The notes under the pieces were generated by a model. The model saw only the letters and a list, made by a program, of their open reading frames with translations, was not told where the DNA came from and made no database searches. Of a stretch of DNA of 37,942 nt, positions 2,703-28,460 are shown in pieces. The stretch comes from Campylobacteraceae bacterium (lineage in GTDB: Bacteria; Campylobacterota; Campylobacteria; Campylobacterales; Sulfurospirillaceae): NCBI GenBank assembly GCA_027013245.1, contig JALUXT010000148.1, forward strand, positions 1-37,942, in the 5' to 3' direction. Positions within the stretch are counted from its first letter, which is position 1, and each line of letters opens with the position of its first letter. A program made the position numbers and the translations under genes.

Positions 2703-4130
2703 TTAGTCCTTTTTCTCCTTAAAATCTATCCATTTTTCAACTATCTTTTCAACTGTTTTGTCTTTTATGCCTTTTATACATGTAAAAGCACTTGGTTGTT
2801 GTTCTAAAACATCAACTATGGCAATGTCGCTAAAAATTTCAAATATCTTTTTTATTTTTTTTGCACCTAAACCTTTTATGGAAGCAAATAACTCCTCTAG
2901 CTCTTCTCTTGATATATTTAACTCTTGGCTTGCTTCATCGCCTGTTGGAATCTCTATGCGTGAGTTTTCTAAATTTTCAACTTTCATAGTTTTTACACTT
3001 TTAAGCGGAAATCTATCTTGAAAATTCCACTTCTCACTAGGCCACTCTTCATAATCTCTTGGCACAATATCCATCATAGGGTACTTGGCATCCAGCTCGT
3101 GTATATAATATTCTCCATCTCCATAAGCCTTTTTCTTGTCATCAAAATATGCCCCGTCATAACTAGGAGTGTATTTGCCAAAAGCGATATGTCGCATGGT
3201 CCTAAGAAGTGAGCTGTCTATCTTTCCTAACTCTTCCCAGTTAAACATAGGCATATGAGGTTTTCTAAACTTACCATTACTTAAGCTCCACATGATGTAT
3301 TGACCTATCCAATCTCTTATGTATGGAAAAGCAGCAAATGCTGTAGCACACTCTAAAATGCGAACCTTTCCATCTTTTCCATAAGCTACATCACAAGCCC
3401 AATACTCTGCGTTTGCAGCTTTGCTGACACTAACCGCCAAATCAAGTACATTTTTTGGGACATCTTGATAATCCATGCTCCCGCCTTGACTTGTATTGGT
3501 TAGCCAATCGCCCTCAGGAGGTCTTCTCCAAAATGCACAAACTGGTTTATGTCCTATAAGCATCACCCTTATATCTGCTTCCATCGGCACGAAATCTTGT
3601 GTATAGATAGGGTGATATTTTTTAGTTTCAAATAATTCTATAGCCTCATCCGCACTATCAACTTTATGGACAAAGTATCCGCCATAATTTGAAGGACCAT
3701 AACTTCTTTTTACTATTTTTGGGTACTTAGTGTTTTTGAAAAACTCATATCCCTTAGCTCTATCATAAAATATATGTGTTTGAGGAATTGGAAGCTTATA
3801 TTTCCAAGCAAATCTAGTGACATTTTCTTTAGATTTATTTGAAAATTGAGTATCCATAGAAGGTATAAATCTTACATGTGGAAGCTCTCTAGCTATCTCT
3901 CTAAAAGTTTCATATGCAGTCGCTGGAATATTTCCAATCAAAACATCAATCTTCTTTTTTCGAACCTCTTTGATAAATCTTTTTTTATCATTTTTCCAGT
4001 GATAAGTCACAGTTTCAATCTTATCTGGCCACCCTCTAAAGTTTGAGTGATCAAAAAACCTCAATACATAATCTAAATACAAAAATCCTAACTTTGGTAA
4101 CTTCTTCTTTCCTGCTTTTTTCTTTCCCAT
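2703..4130 (-). CDS. RimK-like ATP-grasp protein with C-terminal helix-hairpin-helix (HhH) region
   Basis: ATP-grasp features (YPKIVKRSYGPSNYGG, DIRVMLIG, ACDVAYGKDGKVRILECA). C-terminus SIKGLGAKKIKKIFEIF...FTCIKGIKDKTVEKIVEKW resembles tandem HhH. Confidence 0.75.
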   Translation of the reverse strand: MGKKKAGKKKLPKLGFLYLDYVLRFFDHSNFRGWPDKIETVTYHWKNDKKRFIKEVRKKKIDVLIGNIPATAYETFREIARELPHVRFIPSMDTQFSNKSKENVTRFAWKYKLPIPQTHIFYDRAKGYEFFKNTKYPKIVKRSYGPSNYGGYFVHKVDSADEAIELFETKKYHPIYTQDFVPMEADIRVMLIGHKPVCAFWRRPPEGDWLTNTSQGGSMDYQDVPKNVLDLAVSVSKAANAEYWACDVAYGKDGKVRILECATAFAAFPYIRDWIGQYIMWSLSNGKFRKPHMPMFNWEELGKIDSSLLRTMRHIAFGKYTPSYDGAYFDDKKKAYGDGEYYIHELDAKYPMMDIVPRDYEEWPSEKWNFQDRFPLKSVKTMKVENLENSRIEIPTGDEASQELNISREELEELFASIKGLGAKKIKKIFEIFSDIAIVDVLEQQPSAFTCIKGIKDKTVEKIVEKWIDFKEKKD

Positions 4131-19572: not shown

Positions 19573-19604
19573 TACCAATCTCCATTTTGGGAATTGGTAT
19601 TATT
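19568..19604. terminator. Bidirectional hairpin terminator between convergent genes
   Basis: AATAATACCAAT ... ATTGGTATTATT stem overlapping both stop codons. Confidence 0.7.
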
Positions 19605-20346
19605 GTTTTACTCTATTGTTTACAAATCTTATAGCTAGAAATATACATACCGAAACTAGTATCATGTCAGCTGCCACTGGAGCTGAATATTTTAATCCAA
19701 AGTTATTAAATCTGTCATATATCAACACTGGTGCTACCATCGGATGATAAGCTATGATGACTACCGCTCCAAACTCACCTAAGCCTCTGCTCCACATCAT
19801 CAAAGCTCCATTGATGAGGTCGTTTCTTGCATTTGGAAGGGCTATGGAAAAAAAGACTCGAAATCTATTGGCTCCTAGTGTTCTTGCTACATATTCGTAC
19901 CTGACATCTACTTTTTTAAAACCCTCTTTTGCTCCGTTTATCAAAAATGGTGCAGAGAGAAACATCATGGCACTTACTATACCAGTAGTTGTATCTATAA
20001 AATCAAAATATCCATTACTAAAGGCTATCAAAAGTGCGATTCCCGCAGCTGTGTGGGGTACCATGACTGGAATGTCAAGTATTGCTTCAAACATTGACTT
20101 TCCCCAAAAATCATATCTTGCGATGATGTAAGCTAACGGAATTCCTGTGATGCAAACAAAAACAACAGCATAAAAAGCACTTTTTAGAGTTAAAAATATA
20201 CTATCATATACTTCTTTGTCTTGCATAGTTTGGAAAATATTTGGAAAACCAACACTAAGAAAAAGTTTGATGAGAGGCACTGTTAAAAACAGAACTAAAA
20301 TCGAACTTAAGAAAATAAATACAAGCAGAAATCCTCTATCTTTCAT
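19600..20346 (-). CDS. wtpB: Tungstate/molybdate-type ABC transporter permease
   Basis: ARTLGANRFRVFFSIALPNARNDLINGALMMWSRGLGEFGAVVIIAYHP typical of ModB/WtpB. Confidence 0.82.
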   Translation of the reverse strand: MKDRGFLLVFIFLSSILVLFLTVPLIKLFLSVGFPNIFQTMQDKEVYDSIFLTLKSAFYAVVFVCITGIPLAYIIARYDFWGKSMFEAILDIPVMVPHTAAGIALLIAFSNGYFDFIDTTTGIVSAMMFLSAPFLINGAKEGFKKVDVRYEYVARTLGANRFRVFFSIALPNARNDLINGALMMWSRGLGEFGAVVIIAYHPMVAPVLIYDRFNNFGLKYSAPVAADMILVSVCIFLAIRFVNNRVKQ

Positions 20347-21320
20347 ATAAATGTCACATCCTTTTTATCGATATATATATTTGTTTCGTCACCCTCTTTT
20401 AAAATTTTACCATCAAATACACTTTCATGAACTTTGCAAAAAAATACCTCATCTCCAACTCTCGCAAATATTTTATAGTGATCACTTATGCCCAAAACAT
20501 TCTCAATCTTACAAGCAAAACAGTATAAATCTTCTTTTTTTTCATCTCCAAATTTTATGCGATTTGGGTCAACCGTGAAAAATTTATCTTTTTGATTAAA
20601 ACCCAAGATAGAAGTTGGAAAAACATTTTTAAATCCTAAAAATCTTGCTACTTTTATGTTTTTTGGTTCGTTTAAAACCTCATAAGCTCCACCCATTTGT
20701 AAAATTTCGCCATCTATCATGACTGCCACACGATCTGCCAAAAATGAAGCTTCTCTAAAGTTGTGTGTTACATGTAAGATTGTGATATTATATCTTTTGA
20801 TAAGGTCTTTCAAAGATTTCATGATAGAGTTTCGAAATGTCGGATCTACCGCACTTAGTGGCTCATCTAATAGTAGTAATCTTGGGCGAGAATATATAGC
20901 TCTTGCGATTGCTACTCTTTGCTTCTCCCCTCCGCTTAAATGTTTTATATCTCTTTGTAATATATTTTTAATATGTAAAAAATCTACTAAATCATCAAAA
21001 AGCTCATCTTTATCTTTTATCTTTTTAAATTTTGCTGAGTAAGTGATATTGTCTTTTACATTCATATTTGGAAAGAGTAAAAAGTTTTGATAAACAAACC
21101 CAAAGTTTCTTTTTTCAGGTGGAAGGTTTGTGATATCTTTGCCGTTAAAATATATATCGCCCTCTATGCTTTGCAACCCTGCAATCGATTCCAAAAGCAT
21201 AGTTTTTCCGCTCCCTGTTTGTCCTAAAAGTACAAAATATGAATTCTCCTTAATCTCAAAGGAGAGCTTATGCAGCACAAAATCACCTTTTTTTAAAAAT
21301 AGATTTTTAACTTTTAACAT
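20343..21320 (-). CDS. wtpC: Tungstate/molybdate-type ABC transporter ATP-binding protein
   Basis: GQTGSGKT, LSGGEKQRVAIARA, LLLDEPLSAVD; C-terminal TOBE-like. ATG at 21320 has GAGG upstream, preferred over the start at 21332. Confidence 0.85.
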   Translation of the reverse strand: MLKVKNLFLKKGDFVLHKLSFEIKENSYFVLLGQTGSGKTMLLESIAGLQSIEGDIYFNGKDITNLPPEKRNFGFVYQNFLLFPNMNVKDNITYSAKFKKIKDKDELFDDLVDFLHIKNILQRDIKHLSGGEKQRVAIARAIYSRPRLLLLDEPLSAVDPTFRNSIMKSLKDLIKRYNITILHVTHNFREASFLADRVAVMIDGEILQMGGAYEVLNEPKNIKVARFLGFKNVFPTSILGFNQKDKFFTVDPNRIKFGDEKKEDLYCFACKIENVLGISDHYKIFARVGDEVFFCKVHESVFDGKILKEGDETNIYIDKKDVTFI

Positions 21321-21332
21321 CTTTTTCCTCAA

Positions 21333-21379: not shown

Positions 21380-22327
21380 TTATTTTAATATACTGTCATC
21401 GCCTGTGATAACTGGTGGATTTATAGGTCCTTGTCCATCTTTTTTCATGATCGCTTGTCCTGCTAGGGAAAGTATAAAATTGACAAATTTCACAGCACCT
21501 TCTTTGTTCATGGGCATCTTATCGCCGTGTTGTACCACTGTTATACCATAAATCATGGGTGACCCCTTTTTGACAATCCAAGTTCCTGGTTTTTTGCCAC
21601 TGATTTTAAATGACACTTTTTTGTAAAGATTAGCATATTTTGCACTTCCTAGAGAAACTTGAGGAGGAAGTGTAACATATTTCAGATGATGTTGCTCTGC
21701 GACTGACTTATAGATGTATAGATAATCAAAAGCTCCCACTTCTAAAAGTCCTAGTAAATCAGTTTCTTTTGGTCTTATGATCACTTTTTTTCTATTTTCT
21801 TCACCACTTTTGTAAAAATCGTTATATCCTAGTAATTTTTTAAATAATCCTGGCATTTTATAGTAAATTTCTGCTAATTTTGTAACAAGCATTGCCCTAT
21901 ATCCTGCTGGGTCTAGGTTTGGATTTGAGTGTCCTATCTTTACACCTGGTCTTAGCAGTATTTTTGGCCAATTTTTTGAATTGATTTCATTTGCATATTT
22001 TGATTTGTTTGTATAAACTATGGCTAACTCATTTGTTGCAAAATGTGCATTAAATTTAGCATATTTTGGAATCAACAAGTTATCTATAACTTTATATGCC
22101 GCACTTGCCATAACATCGGCAGGTTTTCCGATGTCGGTTATCTTTCTAGCAGATGCTCTACTACCCGCAGCTTCTAAGAGTACATTATATTCGGGGTACT
22201 TAGTCTCAAATGCTTTTTTTATGTCTTTAAACGGTACCGAGAGACTACCTGCGTGAAAAACTACTATATTTTGTTTAGCGTAAACCAAAGTTGTAAATAT
22301 AATTAAACCTAAAATCAATCTTCTCAT
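21380..22327 (-). CDS. wtpA: Tungstate/molybdate-type periplasmic substrate-binding protein
   Basis: Signal peptide; VVFHAGSLSVPFKDIKKAFETKYP, AAGSRASARKITDIGKPADVMASA, NPNLDPAGYRAML. Confidence 0.87.
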   Translation of the reverse strand: MRRLILGLIIFTTLVYAKQNIVVFHAGSLSVPFKDIKKAFETKYPEYNVLLEAAGSRASARKITDIGKPADVMASAAYKVIDNLLIPKYAKFNAHFATNELAIVYTNKSKYANEINSKNWPKILLRPGVKIGHSNPNLDPAGYRAMLVTKLAEIYYKMPGLFKKLLGYNDFYKSGEENRKKVIIRPKETDLLGLLEVGAFDYLYIYKSVAEQHHLKYVTLPPQVSLGSAKYANLYKKVSFKISGKKPGTWIVKKGSPMIYGITVVQHGDKMPMNKEGAVKFVNFILSLAGQAIMKKDGQGPINPPVITGDDSILK

Positions 22328-22346
22328 TCTTTTTCTCCTTGTTTTA

Positions 22347-22365
22347 ATATGCTATTTTGGCATAT
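22347..22365. promoter_or_regulatory. Palindromic operator candidate upstream of wtpA
   Basis: (A)ATATGC-TATTTTG-GCATAT(T); same arms and spacing as at 24005-24023. Confidence 0.7.
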
Positions 22366-22415
22366 TTGTATCCTTTATTTTTCATTTGAACACTCAAAAT
22401 GAACCTATGAGTGAA

Positions 22416-22435
22416 AAAGAGGATCTCTCCTCTTT
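22416..22435 (-). terminator. Rho-independent terminator after the fdhD-modE-like unit
   Basis: Minus strand AAAGAGGA-GAGA-TCCTCTTTTTC: 8-bp stem plus T tract. Confidence 0.75.
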
Positions 22436-22467
22436 CTAATATTCATATAAAAAATATAACATTTTCT

Positions 22468-23205
22468 TTAGTTCTTAAAATCTCTTTTATTTCTTGGTTT
22501 TAGGAACAATTCTTTAAATCTTTGATTTGCAAACTCTTCTATATCTGTTTGAAGTTGTTTATATTTATCTATATACTCATCTGCCAATGGGGTAAGTTTT
22601 GTCCCTCTGTCTTCCCCGCCTCCTTGAGTAGTTTGTACCAAAATATCTTTTAAGTTAGTTTGCAATAGTTTTATATGTGACCAAGTTTTTTTATAATTCA
22701 TCTCAAGATTCACGGCTGCTTGTGAGATGGAGCCTGTTTTTTGTATCTCTATTAAAACTTCAGTTTTGCCTTTTCCAAAAAGAAGTTCTTTTTTCTCATT
22801 TTCTATCCATGTTTTTGTTTTCAGATATAGTCTAGTCCTCTTTTTTTCTTTAAAACAGCCAAGTTCACAATAATTTACATCTATATTTTTAACTTCCAAA
22901 GTTCCTCTGATGACTTTAAGCCCGATTCCTCCCGCTATACTTCTTGCATGCTTACAAGTGATTTTATTTTGTTCATTTATAAAAGGTTTTAACCTCTCTT
23001 CGGCTTTTTTGGAATATTCGCCTTTTGGCAATTTTCCGAATTGACCAAGCCCACACTCGCTTATGCGAATGTCAAGCTCTTTTGCCTTCGCACCAATTTT
23101 ACCTATAGGTATCTTTGTTTTTGCAGAGATTTTATAGGCATTTGCACAGGTAAGCTTTCCATCTGTATTCACAGCATGCAGTATAAAACTATCTATTTCA
23201 GACAT
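22468..23205 (-). CDS. ModE-type winged-helix regulator with an N-terminal tandem Cys-containing repeat domain
   Basis: HTH region KTGSISQAAVNLEMNYKKTWSHIKLLQ...TQGGGEDRGTKLTPLADEYIDKYKQLQ (ModE/LysR-like). N-terminal repeats KLTCANAYKISAKTK...IRISECGLGQF and KITCKHARSIAGGIG...VNYCELGCF. Confidence 0.82.
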   Translation of the reverse strand: MSEIDSFILHAVNTDGKLTCANAYKISAKTKIPIGKIGAKAKELDIRISECGLGQFGKLPKGEYSKKAEERLKPFINEQNKITCKHARSIAGGIGLKVIRGTLEVKNIDVNYCELGCFKEKKRTRLYLKTKTWIENEKKELLFGKGKTEVLIEIQKTGSISQAAVNLEMNYKKTWSHIKLLQTNLKDILVQTTQGGGEDRGTKLTPLADEYIDKYKQLQTDIEEFANQRFKELFLKPRNKRDFKN

Positions 23206-23989
23206 TGATTCTCCTTGGATGTCGATAAATATTCATCTTATCGCCTCTTACAAATCCTATAAGAGTCAAGCCAAATTTATCGGCTATATTTACACCTCTA
23301 CAAGTAGAAGCTGTTCTTGAAGCTAAGATTGGTATTTGGTGCATCACTGCCTTTGCTACCATTTCCGAGCTTAACCTTCCGCTTACCATCAAAAAAGATT
23401 TACTTACATCAATTCCAGCCATAAGTGCTTTTCCGACGGCTTTATCTATGGTATTATGTTGGGCAATATCTTCGCCTATAAAGTAAGTATCTTTATCAAA
23501 ATAGAGCTTTGCAGTATGAACACAACCTGTTTGTTCATAAAGTGGGCATTGTGTGTAAAACTCACTCATCTCTTTAAACAAAAGAGAAGCATTTATACAT
23601 AAATCACCTGTGATGATTTTAGCTTCTATAGCTTTTTTTGAAATCTGAGTACTTTTGCCTCTACCACAACCACTAACAATCACCCCTTGGGTATCTAATC
23701 TATCAATATTTTTTTCATTTACTTTTGCTTTTATGTATACTTTAAATATCTTGTCATCTATGCTCTTGATTTCTGAGCTTTGAATATCTTTCACATTCTC
23801 GATGATGTTTTCACTTATGAGATACCCAACTGCTAGCTCTATTTGGTCAACTGGTGTTCCCATAAGTGCAGTAATGTATCTATCATTTACATAAATCTCT
23901 AATTTTATCTCACGAATAACAGTATCTTGTACTGTAAATTTTTGACTGCCCTTAATCTTGGTAATTTCAAATTCAAAAACTGGACCCAT
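23198..23989 (-). CDS. fdhD: Formate dehydrogenase accessory sulfurtransferase FdhD
   Basis: GVIVSGCGRGKST, TGCVHTAKLYF, EDIAQHNTIDKAVGKA, SGRLSSEMVAKA, ASRTAST. Start at 23989 favoured by GGAGGA upstream (track start 24001). Confidence 0.93.
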   Translation of the reverse strand: MGPVFEFEITKIKGSQKFTVQDTVIREIKLEIYVNDRYITALMGTPVDQIELAVGYLISENIIENVKDIQSSEIKSIDDKIFKVYIKAKVNEKNIDRLDTQGVIVSGCGRGKSTQISKKAIEAKIITGDLCINASLLFKEMSEFYTQCPLYEQTGCVHTAKLYFDKDTYFIGEDIAQHNTIDKAVGKALMAGIDVSKSFLMVSGRLSSEMVAKAVMHQIPILASRTASTCRGVNIADKFGLTLIGFVRGDKMNIYRHPRRINV

Positions 23990-24004
23990 TACATCCTCCA
24001 ATAT

Positions 24005-24023
24005 ATATGCTGTTTTTGCATAT
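24005..24023. promoter_or_regulatory. Palindromic operator candidate upstream of fdhD
   Basis: ATATGC-TGTTTTT-GCATAT; matches the wtpA site. Confidence 0.7.
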
Positions 24024-25622: not shown

Positions 25623-28460
25623 CTACGCTTTTTCTATGCGGCATAATCCGCCTTTAGTTTCAGGAAGCTGAGTAACGATATCATAACCGTAGTTTGTAAC
25701 AGTATTTGCACTCTCGCCAACTGCATATGGTTTATGTCCCTTTGGATAGTGAGCTGACCTGTCTTCGCCTTGGAAATATCCCGCAAAGTGCATAGGTAAA
25801 AATACTCTATCTTCAGCAACGCTGTAAGTAAATCTAGCTTTTACTTTAATCTTTGTGTCTGATGGTGAGTGAATCCACATCATATCACCGTTTTTTATGT
25901 CATGATTTGCGGCAAGTCCTGGATTTATATCACAAAACATTTCAGGAGAGAGTTTAGCTAGATATTTTGAACTTCTAGTTTCAACACCTGCACCATTCAT
26001 ATTTACCAGTCTTCCTGTTATAAGATTGATTGGGAATTTTTTGCTCCAATCTTCCTTATCTTGCTCACTCGCATATCTTGTATCAACTCTGTAATGATTC
26101 GGCTTGTCTTTGTAAGTTGGATACTCTTTTACAAGATCTTGTCTTGGTGAGTGTAGCGGTTCTCTGTGCATTGGTATACGATCAGGGAAAGTCCAAACAT
26201 TTGCTCTTGCCTTCGCATTTCCATAAGGAGCCATTCCTCTTTCCATACATTTTTGGGCAATGATATTAGAAGTATCAACTTTCCAGTTTTTACCTATCCT
26301 TTTTTTCTCACTAGCACTTAAAGTGATACCAAGAACTTTTTCTATATTTTTAGCAGTGATTTCTGGATAACCATCAGGGTTTGCTGAGTCTTTTGGAGCT
26401 GAGCCTTTTCCTGCAAGTAAATCTACACCATCATGCATAAGACCAAATCTATTTCTAAATCCCATTCCGCCTTCTTTTACAGAACGGTTTATATCATAAA
26501 GAACAGGGCTGCCTGAATGAGTCTCTGTCCAACAAGGCCATGGAAGTCCATAATATTCACCCTTCATCGGTCCATATCCCATCAAGCTTACATGGTCGAA
26601 TTTATCCCAATTTTTTTGGTGATTTTTGAGTCTTTTTGAAGTCCAGCCAGTAAAGCCGATAGTTTTGATGATTCTTGCAAATTCATCAGTTGCGTCTTCA
26701 GGCCATTTGAAAGATTTTTTATTTTCCTTCATCAACATGCCTTTTGTAAACTCTTTATAAAAACCTAATCTTTTAGCAAGTTCAAACATTAGATCCTGGT
26801 CTGTTTTACTTTCATATAAAGGCTCGATAACTTGACTTCTCCACTGAGCTGAACGGTTAGTTGCTGTTACGCAACCACTTGTTTCAAACTGACTAGCAGC
26901 AGGAAGCAAAAATACATCGTCTTTTTTGTCTGTTAATACAACAGCTTCATTTACAAATGGATCTGCTATAACGATTAATTCGAGATTATCAAGTGCTTCT
27001 TTTACTTTTGCTTGTTGGTCTATAGAAGTGATACCATTTCCTAAAACAACTAAAGCTTTAAGATTTGTGCCAGCATTATGAATTTTATCTTCGCCTGCTT
27101 TTCCAGCTAGTACGCCTGCGTACCATCTTGCTAGCGTAAAGCCTTTTTTATTCATCCACTCTTTTGCTTTAAATCTTCCTTTGAGCCAATTATAATCAAC
27201 TCCCCAACTCTTAGCAAAATACTTCCAAGAGCCATCACTTAATCCATAATACCCTGGCAGCGTGTGTGAAAGACAACACATGTCAGTTGCACCTTGAACA
27301 TTATCATGACCTCTAAGGATATTACATCCGCCACCTTCTACACCCATGTTTCCAAGAGCTAATTGAAGGATTGGAGCTATTCTTGTGTTTGAGCTTCCTA
27401 TTGTATGCTGAGTTAATCCCATCGCCCAGAGTAGGGTTCCTGGGGTTTGTCTTGCATATGCATTTGTGATTTGTATCAATTTTTGTGTTGAAACACCTGT
27501 TACATCAGAAACACGCTCCGGTGTCCATTTTGCAGCTTCTTTTCTGATATCATCCATGCCATAAACTCTGTCATTTATAAACTCTTTGTTTTCCCAGCCA
27601 TTTTTAAAGATGATATTAAGCATACCATACATAAATGCTATATCAGTACCAGGTCTAATTTGTGCATATAAATCAGCATGAGCAGCAGTTCTTGTAAATC
27701 TAGGATCTACAACTATTATCTGTGCGTTATTTCTCTCTTTTGCTACCAAAAGATGTCTAAAACCAACTGGATGGTTCACCGCTGGATTTGCTCCAAAAAT
27801 AATTATAGCTTTAGCATTTTGAATATCATTCAAAGAATTCGTCATAGCGCCATAACCCCATGTATTCGCCACACCGGCGACTGTTGTGCTATGTCAAATT
27901 CGAGCTTGGTGATCTATATTATTTGTCCCATACATGGCAGCAAACTTTCTAAAATAGTAAGCTTGCTCATTGTTAAATTTTGCAGATCCTAAGAACATCG
28001 TAGAATCTGGACCACTTGTTTTTCTTAAATCTTCCAATTTTTTAGAAATACGATCAAGTGCACTATCCCAACTGATTCGTTTCCATTCACCGTTTTCTTT
28101 TACCATTGGATGTTTATTTCTTATCTCCGATCTGACCATATCGATCATATCAGCACCTTTACAGCAGTGACCACCTAAACTAACAGGATGATCTTGTGCT
28201 ACCTCTTGTCTTACCCAAACGCCATTTTGAACCTCTGCTATAACTCCACATCCAACTGAACATGAAGTACATATTGTTTTAACTAGCTTAGACCCAGGAA
28301 ATGGGTTTTTAACCTCTTCCTTCGTTGCTGCTCTTGTAACATTTCCACTTGCAAATGCGCTAGTAGCACCAAATGCACTGGCAACTGCTGCCATTTTTAG
28401 AAACGATCTTCGACCAATCCTAGTAGAAAGAGCTTTTTGAGTTGTGTTTTGCATACTCAT
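25623..28460 (-). CDS. fdhA: Formate dehydrogenase catalytic subunit, selenocysteine-containing (UGA at 27896..27894), Tat-exported
   Basis: Two track ORFs (27894..28460 and 25623..27872) join in frame through TGA: HQARI-U-HSTTVAGVANTWGYGAMTN. Tat signal GRRSFLKMAAVAS; CTSCSVGCG...CCKGADM cluster. Confidence 0.95.
27866..27896 (-). promoter_or_regulatory. Candidate bacterial SECIS element in fdhA
   Basis: TGA followed after 13 nt by TCGCC-GGTGT-GGCGA; apical loop GGUGU begins 18 nt after the UGA. Confidence 0.75.

Follow-up and report, generated by a model that had tools for sequence, protein, structure and literature searches.

The 37,942-nt stretch of DNA analysed here (the window) contains the dyad ATATGC-N7-GCATAT twice, once in front of a tungstate transporter gene and once in front of a formate dehydrogenase accessory gene. 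Which protein recognizes these sites, and which genes does it control? The original prediction placed 19-bp dyads at 22347-22365 and 24005-24023, and their exact coordinates, perfect 6-nt arms and N7 spacers were verified.

The two palindromes and the genes behind them

All features of the locus given below are on the minus strand. Candidate operator 1 (22347..22365) reads ATATGC-CAAAATA-GCATAT in gene direction and precedes wtpA (21380..22327), the gene for a tungstate ABC substrate-binding protein that matched NF003196 and TIGR03730 above cutoff. The locus also encodes a wtpC-like ATPase (20343..21332) and a wtpB-like permease (19600..20346), both named after the closest NCBIfam family. Candidate operator 2 (24005..24023) reads ATATGC-AAAAACA-GCATAT in gene direction and precedes fdhD (23198..23989), which encodes the formate dehydrogenase accessory sulfurtransferase, and the ModE-like regulator gene (22468..23205). 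The regulator ORF overlaps the end of fdhD by 8 nt, so the two genes are probably co-transcribed and control through the fdhD site would be autoregulation. The wtpA start, ATG 22327, is 19 nt from the end of its site and has the Shine-Dalgarno sequence AAGGAG at 22335..22340. A longer fdhD ORF begins with TTG at 24001, 3 nt from the site; the likely start is the in-frame ATG 23989, the start of the orthologues, which is 15 nt from the site and has GGAGG at 23995..23999. With this start both distances agree with the 15-20 nt that had been predicted. In the formate dehydrogenase alpha subunit gene (25623-28460) an in-frame UGA stands for residue 189, within ARI-U-HS, and the product is likely a selenoprotein.

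Exact copies of ATATGC-N7-GCATAT were found in 0 of 100 dinucleotide shuffles of the window, and among its 25 N7 palindromes ATATGC is the only 6-nt arm used twice. Five exact copies are present in the genome, which comprises 1.86 Mb in 207 contigs. Three are intergenic and precede wtpA, fdhD-modE and the gene for a tungsten-type aldehyde:ferredoxin oxidoreductase (AOR; its site is at C199:23167), and two are within coding sequence, inside a rimO-like gene and a permease gene. Nearly all one-mismatch genomic copies examined are intragenic; the intergenic copy C163:3919 scored only 12.6 bits and has no adjoining Mo/W gene. When a profile built from other genomes, with this one excluded, was used to rank the sites of this genome, the wtpA site scored 24.2 bits, the AOR site 21.3 and the fdhD-modE site 20.8, and the fourth match scored 16.6.

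The motif had not been recognised as the classical ModE box, and this is borne out. The consensus of the E. coli box is ATCGCTATATAN6TATATAACGAT (PMC2700814). Both are AT-rich dyads, but the E. coli box has ATAACG arms at N12, whereas the site here reads TAT-N11-ATA and has GC within its arms. In the window the E. coli pattern is no commoner than background, and it is absent from both promoters at up to 2 mismatches; the classical box was rejected.

Conservation of the site in Campylobacterota

In 80 named Campylobacterota loci (835 kb) there are 83 sites of at least 15 bits, compared with 1, 1 and 2 in simulated sequence. A total of 62 of the 83 fall within 20.7 kb (2.5% of the sequence) upstream of fdhD, wtpA or tupA, and many of the other 21 precede further Mo/W genes. 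In the checks that had been named as able to refute the prediction, the motif proved to be far above background, enriched at wtp, tup, fdh, AOR and XDH genes and conserved at orthologous promoters across families. In most Sulfurospirillaceae a site precedes fdhD by 1-47 nt or wtpA by 12-36 nt. It is also present in Sulfurovum, Sulfurimonas and Nautiliaceae, farther upstream of wtpA in the latter, and in the C. concisus/showae group it is located 125-137 nt before fdhD. The palindromes are probably conserved control sites before W/Mo genes in Campylobacterota, and the ModE-like protein probably binds them.

The genes preceded by the site are almost only Mo/W genes. In relatives these include tupA, AOR, XDH-type molybdo-hydroxylases (XDH/Mop-type) and formate dehydrogenase operons with a Tat small subunit, a TorD-like chaperone or an enzyme of the FdhF type. 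Further genes with an upstream site in relatives encode a FeS protein, a FIST-domain sensor and a FecCD permease. Gene names in relatives are based on reading the sequence and on BLAST between loci, except for AOR, wtpA and fdhD, which were scanned against families. In Sulfurospirillaceae (L178, L189, L191, L197, L198, L237, L238) the FIST-domain sensor gene adjoins an XDH/Mop operon and paired sites. The sensor, mostly found beside XDH, may share the XDH sites, and its location next to the XDH/Mop operon hints at a part in molybdenum-related signalling.

The ModE-like protein and its co-variation with the site

What binds the palindrome? The ModE-like protein encoded between the two sites has a probable ModE-type winged-helix domain at residues 144-237 (22495..22776), which matched TIGR00637 with E=2.3e-15 and 56.5 bits, below the curated cutoff of 98.5. 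Foldseek matched it to 1b9m with E=3.4e-6, and the protein is similar to PDB 2ijl (E=1.2e-7). The helix-turn-helix (HTH) is clearly homologous to the ModE family by these comparisons and falls outside the curated subfamily. The N-terminal half, residues 1-124 (22834..23205), is a duplicated domain, a tandem repeat with four cysteines (20, 51, 84 and 113) that are invariant in the aligned Campylobacterota sequences. A Pfam search gave no family match for this half, and a fold search gave no PDB match below E=1. Like E. coli ModE, the protein appears to carry a ModE-type winged helix; unlike E. coli ModE, its HTH is C-terminal and not N-terminal, and Pfam and NCBIfam scans found no Mop or TOBE molybdate-binding domains. 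E. coli ModE acts in both directions, as a repressor of uptake and as an activator of some Mo-enzyme genes. TunR of Desulfovibrio, from a different phylum, is a tungstate-responsive regulator of tungstate uptake with a ModE-like HTH.

The closer relative is in Campylobacter. According to PMC7011364, which cites Taveirne 2009, Cj1507c of C. jejuni represses modABC and the tungstate transporter, and it is described there as having no metal-binding domain. The window protein is an orthologue of Cj1507c and shares its features: modE follows fdhD, and a duplicated N-terminal Cys domain is joined to a C-terminal ModE HTH with no metal-binding domain. The two proteins are, however, about 47% identical, and the C. 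jejuni/coli clade, although it possesses the ModE-like protein, has neither the palindrome nor a clear conserved dyad at the fdhD promoters that were examined; no strong genomic site was found at its Mo/W genes. In the open-access papers searched, no description of an ATATGC-N7-GCATAT operator was found, and the operator and its regulon appear to be undescribed.

The naming of the ModE-like protein as the candidate binder gains support from the co-variation of the motif with its gene. Among 60 genomes, a best site with E<1e-3 was found in 34 of the 38 that carry the ModE-like gene and in 1 of the 22 that lack it (Fisher 3e-11; the lineages are not independent). Some of these lineages also contributed to the profile, and most training sites came from ModE-bearing loci, but the sites at AOR and XDH genes, and most of those at fdh genes, had not been used for training. 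The fdhD genes of G049 and G037, which have no ModE-like gene, have no site. In G016 the ModE-like gene stops after the N-terminal domain and the HTH, the DNA-binding half, is lost; its fdhD and AOR promoters have no site, with a best AOR score of 0.1. In four loci (L111, L112, L122, L133) the recognition helix NYKK is changed to TVQK, SVLR or DHDR and no site was found in the locus, and these altered proteins may use a different operator. In L097 and L099 the helix is unaltered, yet neither locus has a scoring site. G044 encodes the two halves of the ModE-like protein in separate, overlapping ORFs on the plus strand of L060, 2954-3391 for the Cys domain and 3375-3737 for the HTH domain, and it retains perfect sites.

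A second ModE, a canonical one with a molybdate-binding Mop domain, is encoded elsewhere in the genome (G000:C180; L052:5674-6444). Could this paralogue bind the palindrome while the ModE-like protein serves another purpose? Its presence in the genome would allow this, and G029 has canonical ModE only and nonetheless keeps sites. However, genomes with only canonical ModE otherwise have no strong sites, which includes seven order-level genomes with only canonical-type matches (G049, G050, G053-G056, G059), and the joint loss of the site and the ModE-like HTH in G016 argues against canonical ModE. The recognition helix of canonical ModE, SYKAAWDALNEM, which we take to resemble that of E. coli ModE, is also different from NYKKTWSHIKLL in the window protein. 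Binding by the canonical paralogue is unlikely.

It is also quite unlikely that another regulator, for example a GntR- or FNR-type dimer, binds the sites and that the ModE-like gene co-occurs with them through the same metabolism. The size of the dyad fits many dimeric regulators. In G029, which is 99% complete, the XDH operon still has paired sites and AOR a weaker one (L209, L275), and a search of this genome detected neither the ModE-like gene nor fdhD. Against a different regulator, most lineages have a site before the operon of the ModE-like gene itself, sites are missing where the HTH is truncated or the helix changed, and the C. jejuni orthologue is described in PMC7011364 as controlling Mo and W transport.

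Promoter geometry and a possible mechanism

At uptake and fdhD sites the spacer reads TAAAAT, AAAAAT or TATAAT in gene direction, and in several of them TGC-TATAAT forms an extended -10. The embedded -10 is found in gene direction 32 times and in the opposite direction twice at these sites; enzyme sites have no directional bias (15 vs 21). The original prediction had a -10 ahead of each palindrome. A -10-like element does occur at wtpA, but it is within the spacer and not upstream: the candidate CAAAAT (22354..22359), assigned to this copy from the gene-direction bias, follows TGC inside operator 1. The hexamer embedded in the fdhD site is weak (AAAAAC).

This geometry bears on whether the dyad might act in RNA, as a hairpin in the 5'UTR or a terminator, and not as a protein site. 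The perfect arms could pair as a 6-bp stem, but the spacer carries the -10, so that much of the dyad would be at or upstream of the transcript start, and the sites at enzyme genes occur at variable distances and in phased pairs. An RNA element was rejected since the window has no Rfam match, and a role in RNA is extremely improbable.

We propose, with a probability of roughly 0.8, that the ModE-like protein (22468-23205) uses the palindrome as its operator; it would repress wtp and fdhD-modE when metal is sufficient, and at enzyme genes it would probably activate or work through loops. Given enough tungstate or molybdate, or cofactor made from either, a dimer would occupy ATATGC-N7-GCATAT. At wtpABC and fdhD-modE the bound dimer would cover the -10 region and RNA polymerase would be excluded, because the dyad overlaps the predicted -10 and sits 15-19 nt before the start codon. 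Uptake and FdhD would be repressed, and the regulator would repress its own gene. At enzyme genes (AOR here; XDH-type, fdh and others in relatives) the site is found farther away, from tens up to hundreds of nt upstream, and frequently in pairs that share roughly one face of the DNA, and this arrangement makes activation or looping probable there. With no Mop domains in the ModE-like protein, sensing of the metal would fall to the duplicated Cys domain or to a partner protein. Counting against binding by the ModE-like protein are G029, with sites and no detected ModE-like gene, the C. jejuni/coli clade, with the protein but no site at fdhD and no strong one at Mo/W genes, L097 and L099, which have no scoring site, the weak AAAAAC hexamer and the lack of a known metal-binding domain.

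If true, this would provide an operator and a regulon for a regulator that in C. jejuni has been known simply as a repressor without a metal-binding domain, would lead one to expect that tungsten controls the aldehyde oxidoreductases and formate dehydrogenases of Campylobacterota, and would make tungstate or molybdate sensing by the ModE-like protein testable. A broader and more tentative proposal, which we hold at somewhat below even odds, is a phylum-wide W/Mo regulon with an operator of its own, under a ModE-like repressor/activator that senses the metal or its cofactor through an undescribed duplicated four-cysteine domain, without molybdate-binding domains. Such a protein would repress uptake where its operator encloses the -10, and would activate W/Mo enzyme genes from sites farther upstream.

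The enzyme-gene sites have a geometry of their own. Of 21 paired sites, 17 have a spacing that departs from an integral number of helical turns by no more than 0.2 turn, with phased spacings of 23, 33, 41, 62-63, 75 and 126 nt, and this near-integral spacing suggests cooperative dimers. AOR sites precede the ATG by 79-91 nt, and by 84 nt in this genome once the start is corrected. A -10-like hexamer is found 65-66 nt from the centre of the AOR site here and in four relatives, and a fifth has another hexamer at 65, which would place the AOR site near -75. The AOR promoters (L021 and relatives, e.g. L271-L275) also have a conserved GTGTGTAAAA just upstream of the ModE-like site. It is kept whatever the upstream neighbour gene, is missing in G016, as is the ModE-like site, and is perhaps the site of a second regulator.
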